From IMG/VR virus record IMGVR_UViG_3300044712_000786, positions 1 through 64,000 of that record: a stretch of DNA of 64,000 nt; one strand, given 5' to 3'. The translations under genes were made by a program, and so were the position numbers. The notes beneath the pieces are model-generated. The model was given only the letters and a program-made list of their open reading frames with translations. It was not told the origin of the DNA and did no database searches. Source of the stretch: a virus. How positions within the stretch are numbered: position 1 is the first letter of the stretch; every line of letters begins with the position of its first letter. Positions 15,901 to 59,213 of the stretch are shown piece after piece.

Positions 15901-17080
15901 TAGGATGGATAATTATGCTTTCAACTCTCTGGTTAAGTTTAAGGTATTCACCCGCAATAATGCAACTAATACCTATTGTCTTACTCCTTTTATTACAGGT
16001 ATCCTATTACCTAAGTTATATTATTATGGACCTAACGTATTACCTTCAAGTAAGATAGGCGGATTAAGATATAGTGAAACCAGCGAAAAAGGAAGAAAAA
16101 TTATATCCAATTCTTATAATCCAACATTTACTTGGCAATTGGCGTTTACTGGAGTGCCATTGGATACAGAGCCCCGTTTTAGAGCGACTATTCGTCCCCC
16201 TACATATACGGACGCTACGCCAATTTATCAGACTGGATATTACGAAACCACTGGTATTGGAACATCGTTTACTTTTGATTTCGACACTAACAAAGGTTTG
16301 ATAGGGGGACCGTATAGAGATTATGACGTTGTTATTGAATACGTAGACTCGCAAGGAAACACTTCCACAAATAGCACGATGGGTTCCTTTACGGGTGACT
16401 TTTCCAGACCCTTCTCTTATGACGTAATTACCTTGGTCAATCCTAGGCAGACGGGAATAGAGCTTTCGACTAGTATTCCTACTGCGCCTTACAGCGGGGC
16501 GGCAAAAGCTGCTCACTCAGGAAGTCATATATCCTCCCAATGGATTGGACCCAACGGAGATATTTCGATTCATTTCCATAGTGGCCTTTTCAATGAAGAC
16601 TTAGTAGGTGGTTATATTTATGTCAGTTCAGGGGAGTTCCCCAAGAGGGAAGCCGTCTTAGCGAATACTGGAGACTTTAGATACACTACGGGCAACCTAT
16701 GTGTTTATAGATATAAGTTCTCTGATTTCAGTAAAACTAATCCTTATATTTACCATCCTTATGCCGCTCAACATATCAAGGGTCTTCCGACTGGATATAT
16801 TTCAGTAAGCTTTACTGATTGGGTAGATGATTTCAGAATACAAACTCGACCCATAAGCCAGCATATAGAAAGTATCACTGGCCTATATGTCTCTGATAAT
16901 GCCCTAATACTTAATAAGGCGGAAGTTGGGACTCTTACTTTTTCTGAAACGTTGGAGATTAAGAGGATGAATAACGAATCAGTCGGCTCAATCAAGTTAG
17001 TCAATGATGGTGGTGTAACTAGATTAGTAACCGTAGATAAGAATGGCGATGAGACTATAATGTCATCTAGCTTAACATGA
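12977..17080 (+). CDS. J: Tail tip/central fibre protein J (lambda gpJ family)
   Basis: At 1367 residues this is close to lambda gpJ in size. Near residues 42-60 it has QTIDVLDLVSEGEIFGFP, then VYYNDVPIQNEQGQYNF, the conserved opening of gpJ. The central part (YPDIWNGVFSSEKKWSNNPV, WCYYDLMTNRRYGLGDYI) matches the hub domain, and TAGQEASILRPGDVFGVFD resembles the later beta domain. The C-terminal third is fibre-like and probably holds host-specific binding. It forms the tip trimer that contacts the receptor and opens the channel. Its start follows the I stop by two bases and its end overlaps the next fibre gene (ATGA). Confidence 0.92.
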   Translation: MQEAVEGLYVPVTGVAFTFWDPFGPEYTFGPFSRTVNDTTYTKCKSIQTIDVLDLVSEGEIFGFPQYDYHLENYGTGGHVGYQNYPTDNSARTNISPTSNVYYNDVPIQNEQGQYNFSFFDYDISLGNSQGTTSEGNIFSSTESKYLSRTIGTRLYASTMENASHPAIKPLVNPPPYQDMMGVNSYANDEDTSNFVHYTVMYEGKWFTASDVSEAHPYLQPLTTEFKSILGSRIDEPFGAARTMHEIGEAGGNMAWPKDLPIGGEPPDYPHANAQVFRISNRECAGVVIIFRIGGLLFQVLQGYDDLADQGDTLNNTIYAHATYRPVFKDPKSPLSVWKKTPLYPKTVTMTGKITSQTFYSMAVDFDPYDIEYFKNYPDLIGWEIMIYRSTADSIHSYNRSDLFIDSILEKYFYPLKYPYSAIVRSSFSAEFFSSIPTRSYNLLLKKVRVPEGYDTITRTYPDIWNGVFSSEKKWSNNPVWCYYDLMTNRRYGLGDYIKPSQIDKWTLYQIAQYCDTLVEDGYGGLEPRFTFNWWFTSREEAYKIMQDMSSVFNSMIYYNCGAISTIQDSPKEPVYLFTNANVEDGDFQYSSSAKRDRHSVAIVRYNDKFNLYKPAIEYVEDIDAIRKYGIREKELTAFGCSSRGQAIRLGRWILLSETLETEIINFTAGQEASILRPGDVFGVFDAHRQVRKYAGRTMAITGLGAGLGTKFVLDRTVGELDPQTTYSFKLLTPTYNYDNTEITDLDSSDIADIRRSHIQSFNFSGLNMTTGNGYSYLTVTGDINTSGYNITDSSIWTIDLANGANYNNEVFEKYHTNYYRVVKITEKEGNKYDVGGLQYSPEKFSLAESGVAFSTGHMVNIEPKVPLSPLKIKDTWFWYNLGDHHVYYDYGLYGGLSFGLTPSSPSLESQNVDTILVYATGQQASVGNPNGYPAYVESPMFQQNTMVPPLGNLVYIRNGPQNSIEQETNIPFLTRMDNYAFNSLVKFKVFTRNNATNTYCLTPFITGILLPKLYYYGPNVLPSSKIGGLRYSETSEKGRKIISNSYNPTFTWQLAFTGVPLDTEPRFRATIRPPTYTDATPIYQTGYYETTGIGTSFTFDFDTNKGLIGGPYRDYDVVIEYVDSQGNTSTNSTMGSFTGDFSRPFSYDVITLVNPRQTGIELSTSIPTAPYSGAAKAAHSGSHISSQWIGPNGDISIHFHSGLFNEDLVGGYIYVSSGEFPKREAVLANTGDFRYTTGNLCVYRYKFSDFSKTNPYIYHPYAAQHIKGLPTGYISVSFTDWVDDFRIQTRPISQHIESITGLYVSDNALILNKAEVGTLTFSETLEIKRMNNESVGSIKLVNDGGVTRLVTVDKNGDETIMSSSLT

Positions 17081-18036
17081 TAACTAAATACATAGGCGAT
17101 AGATATGTTGGTTTGTCTTCGGACACTAAACCAGCTAATCTAAAAGACGGAGGACAGTTCGAAGAAATCGATACTGGTAAAAGGTATACGTTCATCAGTG
17201 GCGGCTGGATTTGGAATACCCAAAGGGAAATTCAGGACATTTTACCTGATGGCGTTAATATAACAGGGGGAAATTACGACTATGGATATAACACTTCGGG
17301 ATTTGATACATTCGATGTTTCAGGGGCCTTAGGTTTTATTTACGAGACTGGCAAACATCAACTGGAAGTAGTGGTTGACGGAGTTAGATTGGTTCCTAAT
17401 TTAGATTATGAAGAAACAAGTACGTCTATTATTACATTTAAGTATCTGCTTCCTTCGTATAGCGATATTTATGTAAAGGCTATCTATCCTAGTGCTACTG
17501 CGGGTGCTCCCGACCAGACCATTACTTACGAAGTAACTGGAGACTCCACATTCCTAATGGTTACTGGGGCTCAAGACGTATCTGGCGTTAAAACATTTAA
17601 AGTTCCAGCATTTTTTGAAAGTGGCCTTTATATTTCTGGAAAAGCGGCTACAACGGGCGGTCCATATTATCCCCTTAGTGCAAACCCTAATGGTTATTTA
17701 ACAAGTTCCACGGTGGGGGGCGTGAATTACTTGAGCGTGACAGGGAAAAATATCTCTGGCACTGTCGGAATTTCTGGCAAAGGTTCAATCTATGTAACGA
17801 CTGGAAACAACAACACAATCCTAATTAGCGGCTCCAATTCTACCTTAGTAGACGATGGAACGTTTGTAAGAACTAGTGGAGACCAAATCATTTCAGGAAA
17901 TAAGTCTTTTAAAAATAACGTTTATATTAGTGGGATAGCCGAACTTTCTGGAATATCAGTTAGGGCTAGCGATGGGACTACCCATCCTCTTACTATGATA
18001 AAAACAGGCAGTCTTTACATTTTTCAGATAGATTAA
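17077..18036 (+). CDS. Tail fibre protein with YLSVTGKxISG repeat module
   Basis: This 319-residue fibre-like protein is rich in G, S, T and I. Its C-terminal part holds NYLSVTGKNISGTVGISGKG, then SIYVTTGNNNTILISGSNS and VRTSGDQIISGNKSF, a module found three more times in the next gene. Residues of about 80-150 (DVSGALGFIYETGKHQLEVV) look like a small beta domain. It is coupled to J by an ATGA overlap and to the next fibre gene by a one-base gap. It may be an adaptor or short shaft attached to the J tip; there is no enzymatic motif. A trimeric shaft is inferred from the repeated TGxxISG pattern. Confidence 0.7.
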   Translation: MITKYIGDRYVGLSSDTKPANLKDGGQFEEIDTGKRYTFISGGWIWNTQREIQDILPDGVNITGGNYDYGYNTSGFDTFDVSGALGFIYETGKHQLEVVVDGVRLVPNLDYEETSTSIITFKYLLPSYSDIYVKAIYPSATAGAPDQTITYEVTGDSTFLMVTGAQDVSGVKTFKVPAFFESGLYISGKAATTGGPYYPLSANPNGYLTSSTVGGVNYLSVTGKNISGTVGISGKGSIYVTTGNNNTILISGSNSTLVDDGTFVRTSGDQIISGNKSFKNNVYISGIAELSGISVRASDGTTHPLTMIKTGSLYIFQID

Positions 18037-27010: not shown

Positions 27011-27892
27011 ATGATTAATTATAAAATTTGGACTCTAGAAGAAGAAAAAGAGCTTGAGAGGCTATTGAACGAAGGATTATCTCATAGTGCAATTGGAATT
27101 AAATTAGATAGAACTCCCGTTTCTTGTAAATCTCATTCCAGCAAGCTGAAAATTAAATGTAAGTATCTAAGCGGCAAGAAGTATACTCAAGATGAAGATT
27201 TTTGGGCAATTCCTAATTTGATTAATTCTTATTGGGCGGGTTTCAGTGCGGCAGATGCGTCAATACAGGTAAGAAATAAAAAAAATTTTACATATAAACT
27301 AGAAATTCAACAATCAGATATGGAGCATTTACAAAAGCTAGCTTCAGATTCTAAATTTATGGGTAAAATCCTCTTATCGAAAAGACCAGAGCGAAATAGT
27401 ACGACCGTAAGAATTTGTGTAAACAGTACTAAATGGGCGGAAGACCTTAAAAACAACTTCAATATCATTCCTAATAAAACCAGAAGACTAGAACCGCCGA
27501 ACGACTTATCTAAGGAAAATCTACTAAGTTGGTTAATTGGTTATATCGATGGAGATGGAACCATTCACTATAATAAGACAACGAATCAAATAAATATCAA
27601 TTTTGTTAGTTCGAGCGAAAATCTGATTAAATTCATTCATTATTTTATTAATTCTAACTTTCCTCAACGATTGATAAATAAAGACAACAATTATTATAAA
27701 AATAAGAAATATAACTGTTGGTACATAAGCCTGAGTGGTATTAAAGTCTGTGTTATTATTGACTACCTCCGCTCCTTCCCAGTCCCTAAATTAGCTCGTA
27801 AGTGGGAAAACCCCCAAGTCCTCTCCTACATTTCCCAAAAAAAGCAAGAATTTCCCCATTTATTTCTTCCCCCTTATCCTAATTTGGTGTAA
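27011..27892 (+). CDS. LAGLIDADG homing endonuclease, free-standing
   Basis: The 293 residues contain two LAGLIDADG motifs, YWAGFSAADAS at 74-84 and WLIGYIDGDGT at 174-184, each with an acidic residue at the catalytic end, so one chain could form the two-fold active site. The N-terminal 50 residues (WTLEEEKELERLLNEG, then AIGIKLDRTPVSCKSHSSKL) resemble a SANT/Myb-like DNA-binding helix bundle. These enzymes cut a recognition site in genomes lacking the gene and so spread it. It lies between the capsid terminator and a late gene, with AT-rich codons unlike the capsid gene. Its stop overlaps a GTGTAA motif. Confidence 0.93.
   Translation: MINYKIWTLEEEKELERLLNEGLSHSAIGIKLDRTPVSCKSHSSKLKIKCKYLSGKKYTQDEDFWAIPNLINSYWAGFSAADASIQVRNKKNFTYKLEIQQSDMEHLQKLASDSKFMGKILLSKRPERNSTTVRICVNSTKWAEDLKNNFNIIPNKTRRLEPPNDLSKENLLSWLIGYIDGDGTIHYNKTTNQININFVSSSENLIKFIHYFINSNFPQRLINKDNNYYKNKKYNCWYISLSGIKVCVIIDYLRSFPVPKLARKWENPQVLSYISQKKQEFPHLFLPPYPNLV
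27887..27892 (+). promoter_or_regulatory. GTGTAA motif at the 3' end of the homing endonuclease gene
   Basis: TTGGTGTAAGTG; the TAA is the endonuclease stop. It lies 25 bases before the ATG at 27918, with an AAAAAGG ribosome-binding stretch between. The base after the core is G instead of T/A, so it is a weaker match. Confidence 0.3.
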
Positions 27893-45429: not shown

Positions 45430-46434
45430 ATGTTCGATAAGTTTCAAGAAGTTAAATTAAAAATAGCTCTCTTTGAAATTATTCGGGGGTTTACAGTAAT
45501 TGACGTAGGTAGGCATAAGTCTATCTACGTCAAACACTTTACATTCATCGATACTGCCAGTATTGATTTAAAATATGCCGAAGCTTACAAATTCGCTATA
45601 GGTAAAGGCTTGCCCCTTATAGACGAACAGATAAAAACCGCTATTGGCAATAATACATGGACGGAAAAACAGGAAAAAAGATATTCGGAAATTCCCGCCG
45701 AAATCAATACTCTTAAACTAACTAAATCTAAGCTATTTTTAAAAAGGGAACTAGACTCTATTAACTCCGAAATAGAGACGCTGGAAAAAGAGCTTCTTCG
45801 CTTGGAGTATGAGCGTTCTGAGGTAGTAGGTTATACAGCGGAAATATTTGCTACTAAAAAAGCAAATGAACATGCTATTTATTACTCATTCAGGGGTAAG
45901 AACTTAGATACATTTTACTTCTCGGAAGAAGAATACGAAACCTTCTCCAACGAAGAAATTAGCAATCTTATCGTGGGACACGCAGGTTATGTAGCCAAAT
46001 TTACTCCGAAAGAAATGAAGCGTATAGCTATTTCTACGGCTTTCATGAATATGATATATCTAGCTGGAGAAGATATCATGTCATTCTTCGGGAAACCCGT
46101 CTTAGAGCTAACTAATAGACAGATGGAAGTCTATAATTTAGGGCGTTATTTCAAAAATCTAATGGCTGAATATAAGGGAACTATTACGGATGATTTACTA
46201 GCGGACCCAGATAAGTTTATCGAAGCGGCAGAAAATACCAAAACAGCCCAAAATTTCGCAGATAAATTAGATAATAAAGAATCTTCTGGAACAGCTATTG
46301 TAGGCGCTACTAAAGAAGATATCGAAAAACTAGGACTTACTAAAGAAGCTGGAACCATCAGTTTGGCAGACGAAGCCTCTAAAAAGGGCGGCAGCTTGAG
46401 TATGGAAGAGTTAATGAAACTCCACGGATATTAA
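45430..46434 (+). CDS. Hypothetical protein before tape measure gene
   Basis: A 334-residue protein with a beta N-terminus (FDKFQEVKLKIALFEIIRGF, SIYVKHFTFIDTASIDL), a coiled-coil middle (LKRELDSINSEIETLEKELL, then RLEYERSEVVGYTAEIFATK) and a disordered, charged C-terminal third ending SLSMEELMKLHGY. It is just upstream of the tape measure gene, so a tape-measure chaperone or tail-assembly factor is plausible. The short C-terminal helix after a flexible tail would suit a docking peptide. I do not recognise the family. Confidence 0.5.
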   Translation: MFDKFQEVKLKIALFEIIRGFTVIDVGRHKSIYVKHFTFIDTASIDLKYAEAYKFAIGKGLPLIDEQIKTAIGNNTWTEKQEKRYSEIPAEINTLKLTKSKLFLKRELDSINSEIETLEKELLRLEYERSEVVGYTAEIFATKKANEHAIYYSFRGKNLDTFYFSEEEYETFSNEEISNLIVGHAGYVAKFTPKEMKRIAISTAFMNMIYLAGEDIMSFFGKPVLELTNRQMEVYNLGRYFKNLMAEYKGTITDDLLADPDKFIEAAENTKTAQNFADKLDNKESSGTAIVGATKEDIEKLGLTKEAGTISLADEASKKGGSLSMEELMKLHGY

Positions 46435-46478: not shown

Positions 46479-49400
46479 ATGAACTTAGACGGAAAATTAG
46501 TAATTGGTGCGGACGTAACCCCAGCCCTTAATGAGATAGTAAGGATGGCGGGTAAGCTGCCCCCCTTCAAAATTAGAGTAGACACCCGAAATTTCCCATT
46601 AGGCTCAATGGCGAAATCGGCTGACCAGTTTGCTCAATCCATTCAGGCCGCTAATCAACGTGTGTTAGCTTTCGGAGCTTCGGCGGGAACCATTTACGCA
46701 ATAGAAAAAGCTTTTAGATTCCTAGTATCTTCTACTATCGAAGTAGAAAAGAGACTTACTGAAATCAATGTAATTTTGGGGGCTTCTAGCTCGAACTTAA
46801 AACAATTCAGTAATGAATTATTTAACATTGCCAAAACGACTGGTCAAAGCTTTGATGAAGTATCTAAAGCAGCCCTAGAATTCAGCCGTCAAGGTTTGGG
46901 AGTAACTGAAACTTTAAAAAGAACTCGTGACGCCCTTATCCTGACCCGTCAAACTGGTATTGATGTTGGCGAGGCGGTTAGCGCCATCACCGCTACTTTA
47001 AACAGTTTTACTAAAGCTGCTTATGATTCTACTACGGTAATTAATAAGTTAGCTAAAGTTGACCAAAACTTTGCTGTTAGTGCAGGCGACTTAGTCGAAG
47101 CTATTAAGCGCGTAGGTAGCTCCGCTGAAGACGCGGGAGTTTCCTTGGATGAACTTATCGCTATGGTAACCTCTGCTCAACAGATTACCGCTCGTGGAGG
47201 TTCTGTTATTGGTAACGCCTATAAGACTATCTTTACTAGGTTACAACGTCCTGAAGTATTGAACCAGTTAGAGGAAATTGGTGTAGCCGTTAGAGATAAC
47301 AGTAACGCTATTCTTCCCGCTATTAAAATACTGGAGAACTTCTCTAAGTCCTATGATAACCTTAATCAGTCTCAGAAATCCGCCGCTACTGAATTAGTCG
47401 GTAGCGTTTATCAGATTAACGTTTTAAAAGCTGGATTGAAAGACTTGGGGAGTAGCTATTCTTTCTACGAAAGAGCTTTAAATGACTCCGCTTCCGCTAC
47501 TGATGAAGCTATCCTTCGTAACGAGAAGATGAATAAGTCTATCGCTGCAATGGTGAACTCTACTAAGGAAAGTTGGAAACAACTTTCTGCTGATATTGGC
47601 GAGCAAGCTATTGGCCCAGCTATTAAAAGGGCTTTGGGGGCTTTTGATTTTGCTGCTGGTGGATTAAGCGAACTCTTTTCCAAAAACAAGGGCTCTGGAG
47701 AACAATCAGTTAATATTGGTAAAGACATCGGTCAAGGAATTCTAAAGGGACTTTCTCAATTTATAGAAGGACCGGGATTAGCTTTGGTTGGCTTAGTAAT
47801 GTTTCGCTTCGCTAAAACATTTACTAAATTTGCGATTGATTCTGCTAAAGTAGTTGGCGAACTTAATAAAAATATAGAAAATCGGGCTATCTTGGAAAGC
47901 GAAATTGCGACTGTTTTAGCTCAACAACCTAAAATCTACGAAAGACTTCTAAGCGGAGAGATTACCCGAGAACAAGCGGAAAGGGAAGTTCTTACTATTA
48001 TTAGAAATCAAAATGCCGCCTTAGATATCCAAAAGGGTATTATTACTAGCATGGGAACTTCTATTTCTACTCGTGGAGCAGCGGCAGTTACAAGAGATAA
48101 AAAGGTTGTTGTGGCTGCTTCTAGAGGATACATCCCAAACTTCGCAAACCCCGTTCTTACTGAAAGGGCGGGGGCTTACAAAGCTGGTTACGTGCCGGGA
48201 AAAGTTAAACTTTTCGAAAATAAAGTCATTAATGATGCGGAAAGAGTTATTCCTCCTTCTAATCTAAAAAATCTGGGCTCGACAGCTAATACTTCTGCCA
48301 TCGTCCCTCCTTTAGCTAGCCCCGCTGGACAGGTTTATAAAGCTGCTTTTAAGACTATGTCGGGAGTAGATTTAGCTACTGGACAAAAGGGTTTCATGTA
48401 TGGAAGAAATTACTTTCAACGCGAATGGATTAAAAGCACGGCTAAAAATAGAAAGCTGAGCGTTAATGACCCCGATGTTATTATGACTTTGGGGAAGGAA
48501 TTCGCGAATAAATATGGAACTAAACAGGGGTTCCTTGCTGTAAATAAAGGTTTTGTACCTAATTTCGCGCAGTACCAGTATCCTACCATTGCTGCTATAA
48601 GGAAGCAGCGTCCTCAATTAGGGGATATCTTGAAAAATGCTCCTACAGTTTGGGGGCAGGCTACTGGACAGAGATTCCTTAATCATGATTTGACAGGCGA
48701 TAAAATCCCCATCAGCTATAGAGATAATATTAACTTAGGGGATATGATGAATAACATCCTAGCGAAAGGTAAATTCAGGGCTAGTGAGGGATTCGTTCCT
48801 AGTTTCGCTTCCTTTAAAGAATATAAGGGTATCGGTCTAACCGCCAGAGTCCCCGATAGCGAAATCCTTGACCCCGAAGCTGCTTCAAAATTTGCTCAAA
48901 AACTTTCCTTAGATGGAAACGTATCTACTTTGCTGAAAGTTATTCGTAAAGTTGCACCTAAAAGCCCCGCGCTCGAAGATAATTCTTTGAAATTTGAAGT
49001 AAACTCGGGACTTAGATTTGGTAACGATTTTAAAGCTAGTGGCTTATATCAGTCTGATAATGATACAATATCTATATCCTCTTCTGCTAGAAGCCAGACC
49101 CTAGCTCATGAAATGGGGCATATGGTAGATATATCTTCATTCAGTGATTTTTATAAACAGTCGGGTTTTTCAAGAAAAAAACTTATCAACGCATTAAGAA
49201 GGGACCAAATAAAGTTTAAATCTCGACCTTATTTAATGACTGGAGCTTTTGACGGAGACATGGTTAGAGACATGCTAATGATGTATAGAAGCCCAGATAA
49301 AAGAAATAAGGAAGCTATTGCTGATATTTTTGCGGATTCTGGAAGGATATTCAATCCCAAAATGGAGGATTATAGTCATAAAAAGTATCTAACTACTGGT

Positions 49401-52400
49401 GAAGCGCCGAAAATGATTCGCAAAGGGATTAAGAAAATATTAGGATTAAAATCTAGCGGATTTATTCCTAACTTTGGACCCATCAAAGACCCCTATAAGG
49501 TAAATCCTATTTATCATGTACTAGAGACGATTAGAAAATCAAGTGGCAGCGATTATCAAAATAATTGGGGTGAGCCCATAAACTACGATGAGAGACAAGA
49601 AGAGAATAAAAGACTAATAGCTTCTGTAAAATCTATCGGTTTTGCAGGCTACGGAATCAAAAGTGATAATAAAGATTACCAAATTGGTTCTATGTTTGCC
49701 CCTTATGCTATAACTACTGGATATGAAGAAAAGGAGGTGGCTAAATACATCCCCATGGATAAACTGAAGGCGGCTGGGCTATCCGAAAGACGTATTTATA
49801 AAATGCTCTTTAAAGGAGATAGACTGAGTTCTCGTTTCCAGCAGTATAACGACCCCTTTTCTATCGAATCCTCTCAGGCAAAAATACGCAGAGCCAAAGA
49901 GGGTATCGCCGTTAAAAAAGCCTCTGGAAATACTATAAACCTAAATGCTGCAACATATCTAGCTAGCCGAATGAAGGAAAATAGTCAAGATAAGTGGGCT
50001 CAGCAAAACGCTATTAGCGAAGCTCTTAACACTATAGTTCCTTATCCAGAGCTACAATCTGAGAAACAGGAAGGAAAGGTAGTTAAACAATATCTTAGTT
50101 CAGGCGACAATAAATATAAGCGCGGTTCCCTTAAGGAAACCAAAGAAAAGCTTATGCAATATTTTGGAATCAAAGTAAACAAAACAGACGCCGCAGGAAT
50201 GTTATCTGAGAAACGTCTACTAAGAAGTTTAGGTTTGGCTTCTCGTGGAAGCCCAACTTTAGCAGAGGACAGGGGGCTAGAGCTTAATGACTATAAAAAT
50301 AATCAACAAAGACGTATAACGGTCTCTTCTAAAATAGGTCAATATAGAAAAGAGTTAGAAATAGCTTCTTTAGTTGATAATCCTATATCTCCCGCGATGT
50401 CTTTAGATGACTATAGGCGTTATATTTTAACGCACGGCGCTACTCCAACTACCCCATTTTCGAGGGTAATTACTCAGTTACAAAGGGCGTCTGCTAAGGA
50501 GGACAAGGGGGATAGAAAAACTAATCTAGAATATGCATTACGAAGTATAGCGGGGGGAAGTGTATCATCCACTGCCACAATTAGAAATTTGCCGCGCCTA
50601 AATAAAATATTTCCAGAATTGAAATTGACAAATAAAGAAATTATTAGAGCTTTCAAAAATTCCACTTATGGAAAAATATTCCGACCCGCAGAACAAAAAC
50701 CGTCTATTTTAGGTCAAACGATGGAGTCCCTTAAGGCATTTAAAGGCTTTAGGTCAACTCAAGCAAAGGCTAGATTAGGTAGAGGGGAAGTAAAAGGCGT
50801 TACTCAAGATATGTTCAATTCGGATATAACCCCTTATGCATCATTCTCTATTATTCAAAGGGAAACCCCTAAAAATATACAAGATATCTTATTTAATCTA
50901 GAAAAATCATTTGCCGACAGAGTCAGTCAATCCAAGCTGCTATTTAGAGGCTCTAGTATAATTGAGCCAATGCTAGTTAATCTATTAGGTTCATTTACTT
51001 CTCTAGGAGGTAGGACAGACGAAAAAAGAATAAGGTCTTATCTTACTTCTTCTATTGTAAAATCCGCTAGTTACGGACTTAGCTCTCCGATAGGGGATAA
51101 AAAAGGCGTAGTAAGCATTTATTCTCGACCAATATTGGAAAATTTAGGACTGCTTCAATCTGGTTTAGTTCCTAGTAATGAACAAGCTAATTCTGTTGTT
51201 GCAGAAAGGCTACATAGAAAAGCTTTAATGGGGGTATTAAATCTAGAGAATGGCAGACTGCTTAAGCCAAAAGACTTCATGTCTTCAGTAAGAGATATAG
51301 AAATACCAGAAGAACTGATTCAATTTAATAGGGGACTAAACGAGTTAGCTTCTGGCTCTATTATAAATCGAGCAAGTCCTAAAATAACCTCCACTCCGAT
51401 GGGCGGGGTTATGAACCTATATCGAAAAGTAGAAACAAGTGGAATGACGCCAAGACAAAAAGATTTTAGAGGGCCTAAAACACCGCTGCCTTTCGAAGAT
51501 ATAAAGGGCTGGGATAGCGAGCGAATGGTTAAATACCTACGAAGTTCTCTAGGTGATACTGAAAGGGGAGTAGCTCCATTTGGTTCAGAACATTCTTCTT
51601 ATTTCGATTTAAGATACATGTCTTTTACTGATAGGAAGATGAGAAAAGATATTGCAGAAGGTAGAGTTAGTCTTCAAGATTACTCTTCTATTATTTTCCA
51701 AAGAAAAGTTCCCGTTCAGGAACTTGTAACCCCAGAAAACTTGGGCGATATAATGACTTCTGGGGAAGCTACTAAAAAGAAAATATTTGATAGGGGCGTG
51801 TTTTTTGACCTTCCTCGGTTTAGAGATAAGTTCGGAATTAGTGAACATACTTCAGAACGCGAATATCCATTTTTAACAACTGCTCCCGCTGGAAAAGTAT
51901 CTAACTTCGGTAAAATTTTCGGGCTTTCGAGAAGTAAGGGATATGTTCCTAATTTTGCCTATATTCCCGGCATAAGTCAATTAGCTGGAAGACTACTTAC
52001 TAATATAACTCATACCGAAAGCTATGGGTTAAAAGAAAGAATGGATTCCATCAAACAATTAAAACTTAAAGACTATATTGGGGCTCTGGTAAAAGATATA
52101 CCTACCCCCGCTGCATCCCCTAAAGGAGAGGTATGGAATACTTACGATAGGGATATCCTATTCCGTTCGGTCTTTAAATTGCCACATAGAGTTCTAATGC
52201 CCGAAAATCAAGACTTTCTTAAGTCTAGAAAATTAGTTAAAACTTCTGATAGTACATATAGGTTGACTAACAAAGGACGCATACTAAGTAATGCTTTACA
52301 AAGTCTATCTCAAGGCAAGTATGCTCCACAACCTAATAACCCCAACGAGCTTTATATTCTAGGCCAAAATAAAACTATGGGGGGTTTTGACTTTACGATT

Positions 52401-55400
52401 AACAAAGACCAAAATAAGGTCGGCTATCATGACCTTTGGGATTTCGCCAAAAACCCTTGGGAAAAATTCGATTTCAAAGGCGCGCTAAGTTTTGCTGGCC
52501 AATATGCTAAAAGCGTAGTTAAGAATCGTTCTTTTGGAATGACTGACGAATTAAGGTCTCACCCCTTTGTAGCGGAAGATAACTCGATGTATCGCCAAAG
52601 CCCAGCTTCTATGTTGGCTAGAATGGCAATTAGTCCGTTTGCTAGACCTGTTCGAGTTCAAGACTCTTTCTCCCCTCTAAGTAAAGAGAAAGTAGAAAGA
52701 CTGCAAAAACTCAAGTCCTCTTCTTCATATGGAAGCAAGAGACATAAAGTTTATAATCAAGCTCTAACAGATGATAGCCTAGTAAAGCAACTGCTAGAAC
52801 TAGCAAAAAATCCCCCTCCTTCTGTAGGCATAATGAATAAAGGCTTTGTTCCTAATTTCGTTCTACCCAACAAGGGTTTCTTGGGCTCTCCATTCCCGTT
52901 TGAAGACTTCAGAAAGCTTAAAACGCTTGAAGAGCAATATAAGTTCATTAAAAGCGAGTTTCCTAAAGTGGGGCTAGCTAACCATCCTATTGGCGAGGGC
53001 TCTTCTCGCGCCGTTTATGGTATCGGCGGTAATATGGTATTAAAAATGGTTAAAGATACCAAGCATATTATCGATGGATATAAAAGCCACCCTCTAAACG
53101 AAGCTATTAGACAGAAAGTTTTACTAAAAGGATTTGCTCAAAATCAAACAGAGGGAAGTCAAATGTTTGCTGGCTTCCGAGACATTGTTCCTTATAACTA
53201 TGAAGTAGACGATAGATTCAAATACATCATAGCCGAAAGAGCAGCGGCAATGACCCAAGCAAATGCGGTTAAATTCGGTTATCCATCTGTTTCCGATGCT
53301 CTATATGAGCCCCGCTTCCGTAGGAGACTTACTTCTCTTTATAAAACGGGAGTAATTCCAGATGAAGGTTCTAAAAACTTTGGATTTATAAGGAGAGGGG
53401 GAGAAAATAGACCCGCGTTAATCGACTATGGATTAGACACTCAAACAGCTAAAAATCTATATGGTTTTACTGGGCAGGATTTTATTTCTAAGGGTTTAAT
53501 CCCGAATTTTGCTATAGAGTTTAAGGATAGAAAGCGCATCTATAAGACAGGCTTTGGTGGAGATACAGAGTTTCTAGAAAAGGTTCTATCTAAAATTAGC
53601 CCCGATACATCCTTACTGCAAGCTACTATTCATGGTAGTAGAGACGAATTATTGCAGCGAGTTACCCCAGCGGAATTAGAAGAAATTCTCGCGCTTAAGA
53701 ATATACCTATTAATAAAGACACTATTGCTCATATTAATATAGTAAAAACCCGTTTCGGTAATCTTCCTCATACCTTTGGTATTCAGCAGAAACTTTCTGG
53801 AAGCACGGCCCCCCTTGTGGTTGTTCCTTCGTTCCCAGACCCAGTAATTAACGCTGAAACTGGATTAGGCACTAAAGAAGGTAGGGGAACACTTATTAAT
53901 ACTATCCTAACGAGAAATCCTCGCGGAGAAGGAATAGTTCGCCCATCAGTAGATAGATTTGGACAGATAATGAAGATTCTCCAAGATAAATGGGGTAATA
54001 CTACAGAAGTTATTGGACTAGAAAGAGCTAGGCAGATGTTCGGCCTAAACGCAAAAAGGAAGGCTAGTGGATTCATTCCTAACTTTGCTGACCCGCTTAA
54101 ACTTGCTATAGCTCGCGAAATAGCCGCTGGTGTTCCAGCTAGCTTAATTAAAGTAGAAAATCACGCAAGTCTTAAGAGCGCAAATAATCCATTGGGATTA
54201 GCGGTTACCAATAAAAGAGACGAGCCCAACGGAGTATCCCAAGGTATTTCCCGCGCTATACGCGAGGGAGCTAACCCTAAAACTTATGGTAGCGGTAGGG
54301 TTCCCAACTTTGCTGACCAACCCCGAATTCTAACTGGCTTAAAGGGAATTTTACAGTCTAATCCCGCAACCGATGCTAACTTCAATCAGGGAGTTAGAGA
54401 CGAAATACTAGAAAAAGCTAAGACCCTAGTATTAAAAATGAAAGATAGTCAGGTTCCTATTGGGGAACTCGGGGTTCAAGCAGATAAGGCAGTTAAACAG
54501 TTTACCAAAATGGTAGCTGGTTTGACTAAGTCTCAGGAAATGATTGACTCATTTTCTAAGTCAATTAGTTATTGGAAGAGAGAAAATCAGAAGAACCGCC
54601 CTTCTACTCCGCTGAAGAATCAAGCGGATATTGGGGCTGGATTAGCTGCCCAAAATGCTTTAGAAGCCGAACTTCAAGCAAAAAGACAAGCTCAAGAAGA
54701 AAGAACTCAAAAGAGAAGATTAGATGCTCAAAGTTTCAAAGAAAAGACAATTACATCTACAGTAGGGCGCATTAATCAAGGCGAATTTATTCCTAATATA
54801 AGAAAGCCTATTTTGGCAGATGAAAGAGTAAGCGGAGCCCTGAAAAATCAAGCGATTTCCGTTGTCTCTGATGGAGGATTTGTATTAAGTGGGGATAGGA
54901 AGAAATACTATGACTGGTTAGCGAAGAACGATAAACAAGCCTTCAGGGGCGCTAAACAAATGAGAAACGCTAATCTCCAAAACAGAGCCTTTGGAGTAAG
55001 TTTCGGGGCTTCTATGGTTGGTGGACTAGCTAGCCAATTTATTGGTGACGCTACTCAAGAAAGAAGAGGATATAGTAAAGCTGTCGAAGGTGGGGCTAAC
55101 ACTCTAGCTATGGGAGCATTAGGCTTTCAGGTAGCTGGGCCAGCAGGAGCATTAGCTTTGGGTGCTGTATCGGGATGGGGTGCTGTTACGGATACTATTA
55201 AAGCCTTTAATGACACTCTTCCTGATTTACAAAAGAATCTGGAAGCTGTAACCGAAAGGTCTACAAGGACTTCAGACGCATTTAGTAAGTTCATACAGAC
55301 TAGCGAACAAATCAATAGTATTTTACTAAGTCCTAAACCGGGAGCAGCTAGAGAGTTACAACGCTTACGCACTCAACAATCTTCGGCGCTCGCAGATATT

Positions 55401-58400
55401 CCAGATAGAGACTCATTTGGTAAGTCTGCACGACAAGACCTATTAGACGCATTTAAAACTGGCGACGTAAACAAACAAATCGAAATCTCCGAAAGAGTAG
55501 CTAAGAGAATAGGAACAGAGAAAACCGCTGCCGAATTAGAAACTGGCTTTGCCGAATATCTTGACAAAAATAAGAAGATAAACAGCGAGGGATTTAGCCG
55601 AATTGACAGCTTTGAAAGGACTCTAAGGAGTTCTGTTAATAAGCAGGGATTAACCTTTGACCAATTCTTAGCTACTAATCCCGGCTCCTTAGACTATATT
55701 AAAAGCTCTGGAAGCGCCGAACAAATGGATTCTCGCCTAAGGGAATTAATTAATAAATTCGACCCTAGCTTTAATACTTCGTTTTCTGGAGCATTAAATA
55801 AACTATTTACAGAAGAAGGACCGCTTAAGCAGAACGCATATAAGAGAGTATTTAGCGGAGCTACTAACGAACAATTGGATAGCGAGCGAAAAGCCCTTGA
55901 ATTAATGAATAGAAATCAAGTAGAAAGCGCTAAATATATCGAATCCTTCGGTAATCAAGTTTTCTTAACTAAGGAAAAATTCCGCTCATTTACTGATGAT
56001 ATCGTCGCCTCGATGGAGAGGTTTAATGCTAATCTGCAAGCCGCAAATGAAAGAATAGATATATTCGGTAAGGGTCTAATTGATTTAAATGAACCTTCCT
56101 TGCGCCCCGAGGGACAACTAAATATTAGTCAGGGATTTAGAGATATACAGACAAAAGCGCAAGCCCAATCTCAATTTTCTCTAATTCAGAAACAGTTTGA
56201 ATCTGCTATGAGCGCTGCCCTAACTAAGGCGGAAACCCAAAGGTTCGACGCATTTGAAAAGTTAATGGGCGAAAAAGCTGGTGTTCTAAGTGGCGCTCAA
56301 CAAGTATCTAACGCCGCTTATACCAACGTTCTTTCTGGCGGTGACTTACTACAAAAACTAAACAATATTAATAATAGGACCGAAGTAACGGGTGGATTAT
56401 CTGAGATTAACAAAATTAATCAAGAATCTATCAGAAACACTTTAGAGGAATTTAACAAGATTGCCCGAGAAAAAGATAGCTCTATTACTGCTTTAATAGA
56501 TACTACCGCTAATAAGTTAGCCGCTCTTGATTTAACCAAGACTTTGGAAACTAGCCGCCTTAACTTGAATCAAAAGTTGAATTACGGGGGCGGGTTATCC
56601 GAAATACTAAATGGTAATATCAAAGCCCAGATGGTTCAGCTAGGAACCTCCGCTAATGTAGCTAATACTCTTAGAAACAGCACTGCTCCCGGTGAAGTAG
56701 CTTATCAAAGGGCTGAAATTCTTAAGAAATTCAACGTAGAAGTTCCCGAAAGCCTTAGGAAAGAACTATTTACAGAAAGTAAAAAGAATTTAACTCAAGC
56801 TGGTTTTTCGATTCCCGATGAGGTAATTCAAAAACAAATAGATTCTACATTCCCTAAATCTGACCCAGAGCGAGAAGCTAAAATAATTAAAGCTATGGAG
56901 GAAATGGCTAAACTAAGCCTCGCTGCTGTAAATGAAGAGTCATTAATCAAGCAAACCGAGCTAAGTATTGCTACTCAAACCCAGATTAACACTAAGAATA
57001 TATCTGATGGAATAGCACAAATATTAAAAGATGGATTGAAGGTAAGCGAATCTAAGAACACTAAAGATAGTCCCGCTCCTAGCTCATTTGAAATGCCAAT
57101 GTCTTGGGACATGCCTGCTAATCCGATGCTAAAGTATGATATTGGCTCAGTTTCTAAATCTATTAAATCTAAGGAAGAAGAATTTAAGAAAATAGAAGAT
57201 AATCCTGTAATGACTGTAATGCAGCGCGAAGGATGGTCTCCGTTTGCCGAAGCTAAACCTAAAAAACTTTATACTTTTTCTGATTTAAGGGAGATGGAAA
57301 GACTACAGGGAGAAATTGATAAAGATAAAACGACTCTTGCTAAAATCAAATTAGACGCCGCCAGAAATCAAATCTCTATTCCGTTTGGAATGTCACAAGA
57401 CTGGGAAGATAGCAAACCTAGCAAAATTACCCCTAATATAGGAACAACGAAAGCTAACTTAGGTTATTACGGAGGGATGGCTTATGATTTACCGATGCCG
57501 ATGACCCCTTCTCTGCCAGTCTATAATAACAAGAATATTATTACTCTAGCGGAAATTAAAGCTAAACAAATTAACGCAGCTAACGAAAAGAACTTCGGGG
57601 ATGTTATAAGGGAAGGACCGTTGCCTATTTCAACTACGGACCCAACTGCTCGACCACAAGCTAAAAATACTAGATACGCGGCAGAATTAAGACAGAGAAT
57701 AGAATTAGACGCCGCTACTAAAGATTATATAGCTAGCACGAAAGAATTAACAGAAGCTATGTATGGTGCCGTTGGAGGTTTTACTACCTTTAATGATACC
57801 ATTATCTCTACTCAAAAAACTCTAATTGACTTTGCGGGGTCAGTAAAAGAAGGTTTCCATGACTTAATTGGCTTAGCTATAAGAGGAACGGGCGATATTG
57901 AGGAAAGATTCCGCGAAATGTTCGAGGAAATACTTAATAAAGCCGCAACAAATATGGCTTCTAGCGGACTTGACTTTGTATTTAGCCAAGTTACTAAGGG
58001 TATTGGAGTTGAAAGCCTATTCAAGAATAAGGGCGGTTATATTCCTCGATTCTCTGAGGGTGGAGTAGTAAGAGGGGGTTCGGGAACTAAAGACGATGTT
58101 CTAGCTCAGCTTAGCGGCGGCGAATACGTTATCAATAGGTCCGCTGCTGAAAAAATTGGTTATAAAAACCTAGAAGCAATTAATAAAGGAGGTTCTTCGG
58201 GCGGTCCTTCTAACTGGGACGCTTTTGGGGCTGCTGGTGGAGCCGATTCATTTATTAATCAGCGCTCTAGCGGGATTACCGCTCATTTACAGAATGCTTA
58301 TCGATATAATGACCCTCGTCAGCCAACTGCTGGAGAGGTTGTAGTTGACCCTAGGTTGTCTATCCAAGCTCTAACTGACATGGATAATCCTCAAAGCAGG

Positions 58401-59213
58401 ATTAGAATGGAAAGGGAAGAGAATCTATTAAACTACATAACAGATAAACAAGATTTTCAAAAAGCCCAAGACAAGGCTCAGAAACAGTATAAGGAAGGTC
58501 TATGGTGGAGCTTTGGAACATCTTTAGCTGGCGCTGCTGGCAATACTTGGGCAGCGGGAGCTAAACCTAATACTTTAGGTGGCAAAGACTTTAAGGGAGC
58601 TTATGATACCTCTACTTCGGCTGAAGGCGCTGATTGGTCTAATCCCGGCTTTGAATACGAAAGATTCCAGTGGGATAGTAGTGTATCTCGCAGACCCCTA
58701 ACCCGTAATTCGGGAGGTTCTATCAATTCTAAGACAGCTTTATTAACTGGGGGCGAATATGTTATGTCGCCTGCTACTGTAAGCCGCCTAGGGGTGTCTA
58801 GAATGAATACCTTGAACGCTGGACACGTTCCCACTTTCGCTCTAGGAGGGCTTATGGGCTCTTCTAACGCTGGAAGCTCTCCAGACTCACTTAAGGAGTC
58901 TATAGACAAGCTAGTAGCCGTTTCCCAAGAGATACGGGGCACCCTAGAGGGTAAGGATACTAAAACGGGTAATAAAGATTCGGCACCCGCTATATCCAAT
59001 AACGTTAATATAACTATTTCTGTTACTCAGACTGGAAAAGTCAACTCAGACACTCAAGTTTCGTCTGGTGCAGGGGCTTCCGAGAAGGAAGACAAGAATA
59101 AGAAGCAGGACGAATACAAGAAACTTGGTATGATGATTGAAAACAAGGTCTTGGAAGTTATTGTTCAGGAGCAGAGACCGGGGGGTCTGCTTTATGATTC
59201 CGAATCTCGTTAA
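46479..59213 (+). CDS. Giant tape measure protein carrying enzyme-like domains
   Basis: At 4244 residues this is much longer than lambda H (about 850). Residues of about 89-310 are the TP901-type tape measure core (TEINVILGASSSNLKQFSNE, FSRQGLGVTETLKRTRDALI). From residue 550 a motif of the form G-(F/Y)-(V/I)-P-N-F-A recurs about a dozen times. Between copies are a zincin-like domain (HEMGH at 877-881, EAIAD at 945), a possible ART-like region (R1490, TSS 1523-1525), and a kinase-like domain (G-loop 2172, K2189, D2295, N2300, D2316). Residues 2838-2904 are hydrophobic and could enter the host membrane. The C-terminus has two tape-measure modules around SGGEYVINRSAAEKIG and TGGEYVMSPATVSRLG. 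It sets tail length and probably enters the host with DNA. Confidence 0.93.
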   Translation: MNLDGKLVIGADVTPALNEIVRMAGKLPPFKIRVDTRNFPLGSMAKSADQFAQSIQAANQRVLAFGASAGTIYAIEKAFRFLVSSTIEVEKRLTEINVILGASSSNLKQFSNELFNIAKTTGQSFDEVSKAALEFSRQGLGVTETLKRTRDALILTRQTGIDVGEAVSAITATLNSFTKAAYDSTTVINKLAKVDQNFAVSAGDLVEAIKRVGSSAEDAGVSLDELIAMVTSAQQITARGGSVIGNAYKTIFTRLQRPEVLNQLEEIGVAVRDNSNAILPAIKILENFSKSYDNLNQSQKSAATELVGSVYQINVLKAGLKDLGSSYSFYERALNDSASATDEAILRNEKMNKSIAAMVNSTKESWKQLSADIGEQAIGPAIKRALGAFDFAAGGLSELFSKNKGSGEQSVNIGKDIGQGILKGLSQFIEGPGLALVGLVMFRFAKTFTKFAIDSAKVVGELNKNIENRAILESEIATVLAQQPKIYERLLSGEITREQAEREVLTIIRNQNAALDIQKGIITSMGTSISTRGAAAVTRDKKVVVAASRGYIPNFANPVLTERAGAYKAGYVPGKVKLFENKVINDAERVIPPSNLKNLGSTANTSAIVPPLASPAGQVYKAAFKTMSGVDLATGQKGFMYGRNYFQREWIKSTAKNRKLSVNDPDVIMTLGKEFANKYGTKQGFLAVNKGFVPNFAQYQYPTIAAIRKQRPQLGDILKNAPTVWGQATGQRFLNHDLTGDKIPISYRDNINLGDMMNNILAKGKFRASEGFVPSFASFKEYKGIGLTARVPDSEILDPEAASKFAQKLSLDGNVSTLLKVIRKVAPKSPALEDNSLKFEVNSGLRFGNDFKASGLYQSDNDTISISSSARSQTLAHEMGHMVDISSFSDFYKQSGFSRKKLINALRRDQIKFKSRPYLMTGAFDGDMVRDMLMMYRSPDKRNKEAIADIFADSGRIFNPKMEDYSHKKYLTTGEAPKMIRKGIKKILGLKSSGFIPNFGPIKDPYKVNPIYHVLETIRKSSGSDYQNNWGEPINYDERQEENKRLIASVKSIGFAGYGIKSDNKDYQIGSMFAPYAITTGYEEKEVAKYIPMDKLKAAGLSERRIYKMLFKGDRLSSRFQQYNDPFSIESSQAKIRRAKEGIAVKKASGNTINLNAATYLASRMKENSQDKWAQQNAISEALNTIVPYPELQSEKQEGKVVKQYLSSGDNKYKRGSLKETKEKLMQYFGIKVNKTDAAGMLSEKRLLRSLGLASRGSPTLAEDRGLELNDYKNNQQRRITVSSKIGQYRKELEIASLVDNPISPAMSLDDYRRYILTHGATPTTPFSRVITQLQRASAKEDKGDRKTNLEYALRSIAGGSVSSTATIRNLPRLNKIFPELKLTNKEIIRAFKNSTYGKIFRPAEQKPSILGQTMESLKAFKGFRSTQAKARLGRGEVKGVTQDMFNSDITPYASFSIIQRETPKNIQDILFNLEKSFADRVSQSKLLFRGSSIIEPMLVNLLGSFTSLGGRTDEKRIRSYLTSSIVKSASYGLSSPIGDKKGVVSIYSRPILENLGLLQSGLVPSNEQANSVVAERLHRKALMGVLNLENGRLLKPKDFMSSVRDIEIPEELIQFNRGLNELASGSIINRASPKITSTPMGGVMNLYRKVETSGMTPRQKDFRGPKTPLPFEDIKGWDSERMVKYLRSSLGDTERGVAPFGSEHSSYFDLRYMSFTDRKMRKDIAEGRVSLQDYSSIIFQRKVPVQELVTPENLGDIMTSGEATKKKIFDRGVFFDLPRFRDKFGISEHTSEREYPFLTTAPAGKVSNFGKIFGLSRSKGYVPNFAYIPGISQLAGRLLTNITHTESYGLKERMDSIKQLKLKDYIGALVKDIPTPAASPKGEVWNTYDRDILFRSVFKLPHRVLMPENQDFLKSRKLVKTSDSTYRLTNKGRILSNALQSLSQGKYAPQPNNPNELYILGQNKTMGGFDFTINKDQNKVGYHDLWDFAKNPWEKFDFKGALSFAGQYAKSVVKNRSFGMTDELRSHPFVAEDNSMYRQSPASMLARMAISPFARPVRVQDSFSPLSKEKVERLQKLKSSSSYGSKRHKVYNQALTDDSLVKQLLELAKNPPPSVGIMNKGFVPNFVLPNKGFLGSPFPFEDFRKLKTLEEQYKFIKSEFPKVGLANHPIGEGSSRAVYGIGGNMVLKMVKDTKHIIDGYKSHPLNEAIRQKVLLKGFAQNQTEGSQMFAGFRDIVPYNYEVDDRFKYIIAERAAAMTQANAVKFGYPSVSDALYEPRFRRRLTSLYKTGVIPDEGSKNFGFIRRGGENRPALIDYGLDTQTAKNLYGFTGQDFISKGLIPNFAIEFKDRKRIYKTGFGGDTEFLEKVLSKISPDTSLLQATIHGSRDELLQRVTPAELEEILALKNIPINKDTIAHINIVKTRFGNLPHTFGIQQKLSGSTAPLVVVPSFPDPVINAETGLGTKEGRGTLINTILTRNPRGEGIVRPSVDRFGQIMKILQDKWGNTTEVIGLERARQMFGLNAKRKASGFIPNFADPLKLAIAREIAAGVPASLIKVENHASLKSANNPLGLAVTNKRDEPNGVSQGISRAIREGANPKTYGSGRVPNFADQPRILTGLKGILQSNPATDANFNQGVRDEILEKAKTLVLKMKDSQVPIGELGVQADKAVKQFTKMVAGLTKSQEMIDSFSKSISYWKRENQKNRPSTPLKNQADIGAGLAAQNALEAELQAKRQAQEERTQKRRLDAQSFKEKTITSTVGRINQGEFIPNIRKPILADERVSGALKNQAISVVSDGGFVLSGDRKKYYDWLAKNDKQAFRGAKQMRNANLQNRAFGVSFGASMVGGLASQFIGDATQERRGYSKAVEGGANTLAMGALGFQVAGPAGALALGAVSGWGAVTDTIKAFNDTLPDLQKNLEAVTERSTRTSDAFSKFIQTSEQINSILLSPKPGAARELQRLRTQQSSALADIPDRDSFGKSARQDLLDAFKTGDVNKQIEISERVAKRIGTEKTAAELETGFAEYLDKNKKINSEGFSRIDSFERTLRSSVNKQGLTFDQFLATNPGSLDYIKSSGSAEQMDSRLRELINKFDPSFNTSFSGALNKLFTEEGPLKQNAYKRVFSGATNEQLDSERKALELMNRNQVESAKYIESFGNQVFLTKEKFRSFTDDIVASMERFNANLQAANERIDIFGKGLIDLNEPSLRPEGQLNISQGFRDIQTKAQAQSQFSLIQKQFESAMSAALTKAETQRFDAFEKLMGEKAGVLSGAQQVSNAAYTNVLSGGDLLQKLNNINNRTEVTGGLSEINKINQESIRNTLEEFNKIAREKDSSITALIDTTANKLAALDLTKTLETSRLNLNQKLNYGGGLSEILNGNIKAQMVQLGTSANVANTLRNSTAPGEVAYQRAEILKKFNVEVPESLRKELFTESKKNLTQAGFSIPDEVIQKQIDSTFPKSDPEREAKIIKAMEEMAKLSLAAVNEESLIKQTELSIATQTQINTKNISDGIAQILKDGLKVSESKNTKDSPAPSSFEMPMSWDMPANPMLKYDIGSVSKSIKSKEEEFKKIEDNPVMTVMQREGWSPFAEAKPKKLYTFSDLREMERLQGEIDKDKTTLAKIKLDAARNQISIPFGMSQDWEDSKPSKITPNIGTTKANLGYYGGMAYDLPMPMTPSLPVYNNKNIITLAEIKAKQINAANEKNFGDVIREGPLPISTTDPTARPQAKNTRYAAELRQRIELDAATKDYIASTKELTEAMYGAVGGFTTFNDTIISTQKTLIDFAGSVKEGFHDLIGLAIRGTGDIEERFREMFEEILNKAATNMASSGLDFVFSQVTKGIGVESLFKNKGGYIPRFSEGGVVRGGSGTKDDVLAQLSGGEYVINRSAAEKIGYKNLEAINKGGSSGGPSNWDAFGAAGGADSFINQRSSGITAHLQNAYRYNDPRQPTAGEVVVDPRLSIQALTDMDNPQSRIRMEREENLLNYITDKQDFQKAQDKAQKQYKEGLWWSFGTSLAGAAGNTWAAGAKPNTLGGKDFKGAYDTSTSAEGADWSNPGFEYERFQWDSSVSRRPLTRNSGGSINSKTALLTGGEYVMSPATVSRLGVSRMNTLNAGHVPTFALGGLMGSSNAGSSPDSLKESIDKLVAVSQEIRGTLEGKDTKTGNKDSAPAISNNVNITISVTQTGKVNSDTQVSSGAGASEKEDKNKKQDEYKKLGMMIENKVLEVIVQEQRPGGLLYDSESR
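48126..58841 (+). repeat. Dispersed GFVPNFA motif within the tape measure gene
   Basis: Seven-residue motifs begin at 48126 (GYIPNFA), 48549 (GFVPNFA), 48789 (GFVPSFA), 49458 (GFIPNFG), 51939 (GYVPNFA), 52842 (GFVPNFV), 53493 (GLIPNFA), 54069 (GFIPNFA), 54294 (GRVPNFA), 54780 (GEFIPNI, degenerate), 58035 (GYIPRFS) and 58821 (GHVPTFA). Each is often preceded by S/N-K or A-S and sits between blocks that differ from one another. Confidence 0.9.

Follow-up and report, generated by a model that had tools for sequence, protein, structure and literature searches.

Within the 64,000-nucleotide stretch of DNA analyzed here (the window, part of a 202,704-base virus record), we identify a siphovirus tape measure gene whose product probably doubles as a cargo carrier, with cassettes bordered by a short motif that are swapped among phages and would be delivered to the host. 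The motif array, a scaffold shared among related proteins, the exchange of cassettes at the motif, and the near-absence of cysteine in cargo and ruler alike are directly supported; we infer the location of the cargo in the tail lumen, its unfolded passage, its delivery and its activity. In the proposed mechanism, unrelated domains lined up in tandem, each preceded by G-[FY]-[IV]-P-N-F-A, would lie between an N-terminal core and a C-terminal part, and cassettes made of motif plus domain would be swapped among phages with breakpoints at the motif. The cargo would lie in the tail tube as part of the ruler molecule, probably not natively folded, would exit the virion together with the ruler when infection starts, and would then fold in the host into enzymes or other effectors. 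In its available text, PMC13277306 describes tape measure proteins as ejected and inserted into the cell membrane, which lends support in print to such a delivery route.

The gene (Table 1) is a single open reading frame carrying every motif copy. The initial annotation of this DNA had called it a tape measure gene, and we agree: the Pfam domain PhageMin_Tail (PF10145) matches the N-terminal part of the protein at an E value of 6e-29, and PHROG tape measure families match it with E values down to 7e-49. The same window encodes a lambda-like set of tail proteins, comprising a central tail fibre J match (E 7e-139) plus minor tail and tail fibre proteins, and no sheath family is found among the 20 window proteins scanned, of the 202.7-kb record. 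Because lambda-type tail genes lie nearby and a sheath is missing from these 20 proteins, the phage is most likely a siphovirus. Elsewhere in the window, an endonuclease-like gene is located at 27011-27889 (phrog_4645, E 2e-23, with a weaker HNH match).

Nine copies of G-x-[VI]-P-[NS]-F-x are present in one frame between 48126 and 54314, separated by blocks of 68 to 820 residues. All nine fit the broader pattern G-x-[VILA]-P-[NS]-[FL]-[AGSVN], which has no further match elsewhere in the window in any of the six frames, and the reversed motif has 0 matches in the protein. In 2,000 residue shuffles of the protein, the motif count averages 0.02 and reaches a maximum of 2, versus the nine observed. 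About a dozen copies over 10.7 kb of a single gene had been reported at first; the single gene stands, and the array shrinks to nine copies over 6.2 kb, with three more being weak and falling outside the pattern (EFIPNIR at 54783 and the two look-alikes in Table 1). Codons vary between the copies, so that the repeat appears to be kept at the protein level; on the same grounds, an array maintained as a DNA repeat is ruled out.

Table 1. Parts of the tape measure gene in the window (positions count from the first letter of the window)
Feature	Position	Strand	Remarks
Tape measure gene	46479..59213	+	4,244 aa, no cysteine
N-terminal core, residues 1-440	46479..47798	+	profile matches 63/63 proteins; PhageMin_Tail at residues 118-305
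Motif 1 GYIPNFA	48126..48146	+	
Scaffold block W1	48147..48548	+	profile in 35/63 proteins, window included
Motif 2 GFVPNFA	48549..48569	+	
Block W2, 73 aa	48570..48788	+	absent from all other loci compared
Motif 3 GFVPSFA	48789..48809	+	
Cargo block W3	48810..49457	+	zincin-like HEMGH signature; Pfam DUF6782 only at E 0.06
Motif 4 GFIPNFG	49458..49478	+	
Cargo block W4, 820 aa	49479..51938	+	second part common to the L127 tape measure
Motif 5 GYVPNFA	51939..51959	+	
Cargo block W5	51960..52841	+	first part common to L127
Motif 6 GFVPNFV	52842..52862	+	
Cargo block W6, kinase-like by eye	52863..53492	+	phrog_4301 match; 26% identity to an L251 block
Motif 7 GLIPNFA	53493..53513	+	
Cargo block W7	53514..54068	+	absent from other loci compared; no Pfam match
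Motif 8 GFIPNFA	54069..54089	+	
Scaffold block W8	54090..54293	+	profile in 43/63 proteins, window included
Motif 9 GRVPNFA	54294..54314	+	
C-terminal region	54315..59210	+	W9a (first part) in 28/63; W9c (last part) in 42/63, window included
C-terminal region, middle part W9b	within 54315..59210	+	window and L127 only
Look-alike GYIPRFS, C-terminal	58035..58055	+	left out of array count
Look-alike GHVPTFA, C-terminal	58821..58841	+	left out of array count

The array region has no match among 50,697 isolate phage records (E 1e-3), and the N-terminal part of the protein has matches in 236 isolate records. A DNA pattern built on one variant of the motif picked up at least 120 stretches in IMG/VR. 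In 120 motif-seeded loci, the motif is found 369 times forward and once reversed, seeds included; seven of these loci show no frame of 80 aa with the strict motif and are therefore taken as chance hits. Across two scans of whole records (45 and 49, with 13 shared), the copies lie on one strand per record, except for a single stray in record G038. A control pattern gave four matches in the first scan, two of them in a 1.4-Mb bacterial bin, and 0 in the second. In the fetched regions, copies are confined to one gene each, with three regions adding single second-frame matches. These regions supplied 66 proteins with at least two copies, of which three were dropped as over 90% identical; the resulting set of 63 includes the window protein (L128), and its source loci were found by the motif and largely picked for several copies. 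Eight of the 63 are cut at the C terminus. Frames were taken from stop to stop, and N-terminal lengths and some N-terminal cysteines may thus precede the true start.

Conservation of the motif in related tape measures, on which the first reading of this gene had been made to depend, is seen in two sets. At least two copies are present in 62 other nonredundant proteins from uncultured phages, a count drawn from loci largely picked for the motif. In a set seeded independently of the motif, with loci fetched by the signature of block W8 alone, 49 of 51 new loci carry at least one copy and 44 carry at least two, for a total of 138 copies forward versus one reversed; these 51 include 12 pairs over 90% identical, and three loci are equally close to members of the first set, so that about 40 count as independent. 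One locus (L346) was excluded because no W8 frame could be located in it. All such counts come from related sequences and are not independent events. A genome scan gave, among at least 119 stretches listed, 44 loci with the motif in an open frame of at least 80 aa. Forty-two of these listed loci have a single copy and look like chance occurrences; the other two are L144, with five copies, and L197, with two. The five-copy array sits in a bacterial bin, on a MAG contig labelled Proteobacteria bacterium WB5_3A_111, and may be a viral contig binned with its host. Among 61 genomes of the same family, a search for W8 found none, not even in the genome of L144 itself. Weak W8 matches to a cyanophage helicase and to marine viruses were set aside, the three loci read having no motif array.

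The 63 proteins share a common architecture. In 60 of them the first motif lies 538 to 654 residues into the frame, and a motif is found at both ends of the array in most proteins as well as between domains. The proteins carry 2 to 16 copies, with gaps of 8 to 1,249 residues (median 183, n = 246). Of the window blocks, the scaffold profiles W1, W8, W9a, and W9c recur, and W2 to W7 do not, with the exception of W4b and W5 in one relative; W2, W3, W4a, W6, and W7 are found in no other locus compared. This relative, whose loci L005 and L127 are the same record, is the only one to have W4b, W5, and W9b in common with the window. Its frame comprises 5,469 residues and 15 blocks, and one HExxH block recurs in it three times (blocks 2, 5, and 11), always flanked by motifs, suggesting that a cassette was duplicated. 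Some inter-motif stretches are not cargo, since they match the C-terminal profiles or tape measure families: three of the four blocks over 850 residues match W9a or W9c, a PHROG tape measure family is matched by one block, and a Pfam tape measure C-terminal domain by one. A few proteins have a late motif copy far downstream, and the stretch that precedes this copy is taken as ruler. A site-specific recombinase or integrase gene is located upstream of the tape measure gene in SPbeta (L323), Lactococcus 949 (L325), and FADO (L327), directly so in 949 and FADO.

In lambda-type phages, tail length is set by the length of the tape measure protein. The span of the array correlates with motif number (rho 0.90) and both ruler and cargo contain almost no cysteine, as would be expected if the blocks served ruler length only, being cysteine-free filler that lengthens the tail, and the motif were a repeated contact with the tail tube. 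We regard this explanation as unlikely. The gaps between motifs vary widely and show no period clearly beyond jittered controls: the best period, 62.5 aa, was matched or surpassed by 40 of 500 jittered sets. A periodic tube contact is accordingly set aside, and the clip suggested earlier is disfavored if placed at regular positions along the tube. In addition, the composition of the cargo is of the globular-protein type, unlike that of the ruler. In 149 blocks of at least 95 aa without a scaffold match, proline amounts to 4.2% and aromatic residues to 8.3%, versus 1.2% and 5.1% in the N-terminal core and 2.6% and 5.8% in the C-terminal part. Length alone would also leave unexplained the catalytic-type residues that are invariant across diverged members of cargo families, and the one block that passes the curated cut-off for staphylococcal nuclease (SNase; 38.4 bits versus 21).

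Exchange of the blocks is evident from comparisons across proteins, for which blocks of less than 45 aa (in some analyses less than 95 aa) and pairs whose alignment covered under 70% of the shorter member were omitted. Among 163 blocks of at least 95 residues, we observe 126 homologous cargo-size pairs across proteins, 59 of them at differing ordinal positions. When the neighbors of homologous pairs are compared, 10 of 96 comparisons are homologous, and for pairs of at least 60% identity, 24 of 30 are not. With near-identical blocks standing beside unrelated neighbors, and with their globular-type composition, the blocks resemble exchangeable cargo and not ruler, in line with the cargo domains of the initial annotation. 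At the DNA level, 12 pairs, hand-chosen, sharing members, and with a like downstream neighbor in one, show a mean identity of 94% in the 5' motif and 80% in the 3' motif, versus 76% (s.d. 9%) for unrelated motif pairs. For the second blocks of L258 and L277 (95% protein identity), the DNA sequences match from the 5' motif's first base onward; identity is at the unrelated level of 76% in the 3' motif and at 23 to 37% in both flanks. Since the 5' motif matches and the 3' motif is near the unrelated level, the mobile unit looks, on these alignments, like a motif together with the domain that follows it.

The coincidence of breakpoints with motif codons in the examined pairs could also mean that the motif is mainly a DNA-level recombination site, acting through microhomology and without a function in the protein. 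This appears very improbable, as the copies differ in their synonymous codons and unrelated motif pairs have on average only about three-quarters of their bases in common, yet the residues are kept.

What the blocks encode can be named in few cases. Several enzyme signatures had been claimed for the window blocks by the initial annotation; the HEMGH of W3 is plain, and it is the only plain one in the window, with the Pfam support given in Table 1. By eye, W4 resembles ART and two other blocks resemble HAD or GNAT proteins; Pfam lent these resemblances no support, and they are set aside. No window block could be placed securely in a family. W6 matches phrog_4301, a family of unknown function, at E 1.2e-5; this family has hits in two of 43 records and in one of 14 control genomes, and the link between W6 and the L251 block is seen solely by profile matching through it. 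An AlphaFold2 (AF2) model of W6, at a pLDDT of 34.2, gave no usable fold. We found no relatives of W6 or of W4b in viral contigs, and the best matches of W6 are at E 0.3 in isolate phages and E 0.24 in the PDB; relatives of the kinase-like L251 block are two loci, both 100% identical.

Across the wider set, the HExxH signature is found in 6 of 131 block representatives versus 0.2 in shuffles. A cargo family of 11 aligned rows keeps a P-loop, which is invariant, and two arginines. The commonest cargo family, which is not present in the window, has 46 unique members, and all 41 rows of its alignment (one row being identical to part of another) keep E, D, and K. The E-D-[DE]xK order of this family is the pattern of PD-(D/E)XK nucleases. 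The AF2 model of the family has a pLDDT of 77.7, and a fold search with it gave no PDB match at Z of at least 5 (best Z 4.6, over 63 residues), for which reason the name PD-(D/E)XK is not established; the family profile likewise retrieved no nuclease from the PDB, with a best E value of 0.0015 to a short lectin stretch. Among the 131 representatives, the best Pfam E values (best 25 of 48 families) include those of HIGH_NTase1_ass, a cytidyltransferase-associated region (3e-8), PcfJ (3e-7), and GNAT (4e-7); at E 0.05, 80 or more of the representatives lack any Pfam match. Regular expressions, with patterns that may be too narrow, gave no excess over shuffles for GNAT and GHKL ATPase and 0 matches for SNase, HAD, HIGH, and ART in the same 131. 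Antidefense models (PADLOC) gave no match better than E 0.0016, and no cell wall hydrolase was recognized among the best 25 of 48 Pfam families and the 25 PHROG families listed.

A further property links cargo and ruler. The window protein contains 0 cysteines in its 4,244 residues, versus 0.87% in 40 other window genes. In the first-to-last-motif spans of the 63 proteins there are 3 cysteines in 52,973 residues, and in the 149 scaffold-free blocks 3 in 39,282 residues, where about 300 would be expected at the 0.77% found in 312 other genes of the same loci; the ruler parts are as cysteine-poor as the cargo. Frames bearing W8 (51 loci) have 0 cysteines in 82,107 residues; in 260 other genes the share is 0.64%. 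Isolate phages agree, with 0 cysteines in the 11,743 residues of five tape measures that include lambda gpH and SPbeta YomI. Among other genes of at least 400 aa, 1 of 97 and 5 of 65 are without cysteine. Histidine in the cargo is near normal (0.69%, versus 0.88% in other genes), which argues against a general loss of reactive residues. We read the absence of cysteine as a rule of tape measure proteins, which the cargo would obey because it travels with the tape measure protein. The likely reason for such a rule would be oxidation during unfolded passage or storage. The few cysteines include close pairs at residues 1988/1996 in L251, 2441/2450 in L278, and 1801/1805 in L302, which are perhaps disulfides or metal sites; those outside close pairs are located at N termini, plus a single one in L259. 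Two other window genes, at 45430-46431 (334 aa, directly upstream of the tape measure gene) and 17077-18033 (319 aa), are also cysteine-free and have no PHROG match at E 0.01.

The cysteine rule bears on a further explanation, in which the protein is a polyprotein cut by a protease at each motif in the infected cell, with only the ends forming the ruler and the freed proteins acting in that cell or being packaged elsewhere. One conserved short site between domains, mostly present at both array ends as well, would suit such processing, as would the enrichment of small residues at positions -2 and -3 of the motif and the HExxH domains of some arrays. Cargo that shares the cysteine rule of tape measures speaks against it, as this would be needless for separate cytosolic products. 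HExxH blocks are found in only 5 of 63 proteins (7 of 242 blocks, a count that divergent zincins without the signature escape), because of which self-processing by such blocks is not general. We consider the polyprotein improbable and retain the cargo-carrying tape measure as the preferred explanation.

As for the motif itself, the initial annotation had seen in it a remnant of the C-terminal docking module of tape measures. This is not borne out by our data: within their final 800 residues, 35 of the 63 proteins have a GEYVI-like module and 12 have PxF (shuffle mean, 2.9), and a GEYVI-like stretch followed by PxF within 60 residues is seen in only 3 of 63. The motif may tentatively be regarded as a release or recognition site. 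A docking site for the tube or for a tail chaperone is conceivable though doubtful, while a tolerated joint, kept mainly by selection on junctions together with recombination, seems rather unlikely, and a role other than these three more so. It is possible, and we put it forward tentatively, that in this uncultured phage group the tape measure forms an exchangeable magazine of cysteine-free effectors, for which the motif would be the border, the exchange joint, and the release recognition site at once, its recognition in the virion or in the newly infected cell freeing each effector separately.

Tape measure proteins are rulers and helpers of DNA entry, sometimes equipped with a cell wall enzyme. 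If our reading is true, swapped modular cargo would make the tail tube a general route of protein delivery, and a sequence rule (motif borders and no cysteine) would find injected effectors among unannotated phage genes. With the cysteine rule, the old question of whether these proteins travel unfolded through tube and envelope becomes testable. Such arrays could further show how selected harmless proteins might be loaded into phage tails.

In the part of the literature covered by our search, we found no description of the motif, the architecture, or cysteine-free tape measures, and GFIPNFA returned 0 papers. The polyvalent proteins of phages and conjugative elements (Iyer et al. 2017, PMC5512222) are similar in that unrelated enzyme-type domains, including zincins, are joined in one long polypeptide that is thought to enter the host with the DNA. 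According to the available text of that source, they differ in being packaged in the head, joined to RNA polymerase or another enzyme, or transferred by conjugation, whereas here the carrier is a tape measure with one short motif at the joints; the term "tape measure" is absent from its main text as far as available. Several activities, as in polyvalent proteins, may be present across the relatives, which bear SNase, HExxH, P-loop, and other signatures, and the window has only HEMGH and a weak kinase-like match; a pervasive zincin is not seen, given the few proteins with HExxH. For packaging in the virion and entry with the DNA, the cysteine pattern gives indirect support. The Sle1/Tme effectors of contractile injection systems likewise combine a tape-measure-like part with an exchangeable domain in a tail-like particle (PMC13277306, available text). 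They belong to bacterial contractile particles and consist of an N-terminal coiled coil and a C-terminal functional domain, in contrast to the phage ruler described here, in which the motif occurs up to 16 times and the cargo occupies the protein's middle part. Polyvalent proteins and Sle1/Tme thus bound the novelty of our finding, and neither is described, in the text available, with a motif-delimited cassette array in a phage ruler. Enzyme activity within a tape measure is also described for mycobacteriophage TM4 (PMC1796659) and, by annotation, for the SPbeta-like YomI; these enzymes act on peptidoglycan, whereas here many unrelated cassettes are carried. Finally, polymorphic toxin systems (PMC3482391, available text) resemble our arrays in joining a constant carrier to variable, recombining domains, with one C-terminal domain in the toxins and several internal cassettes per protein in the tape measures described here.
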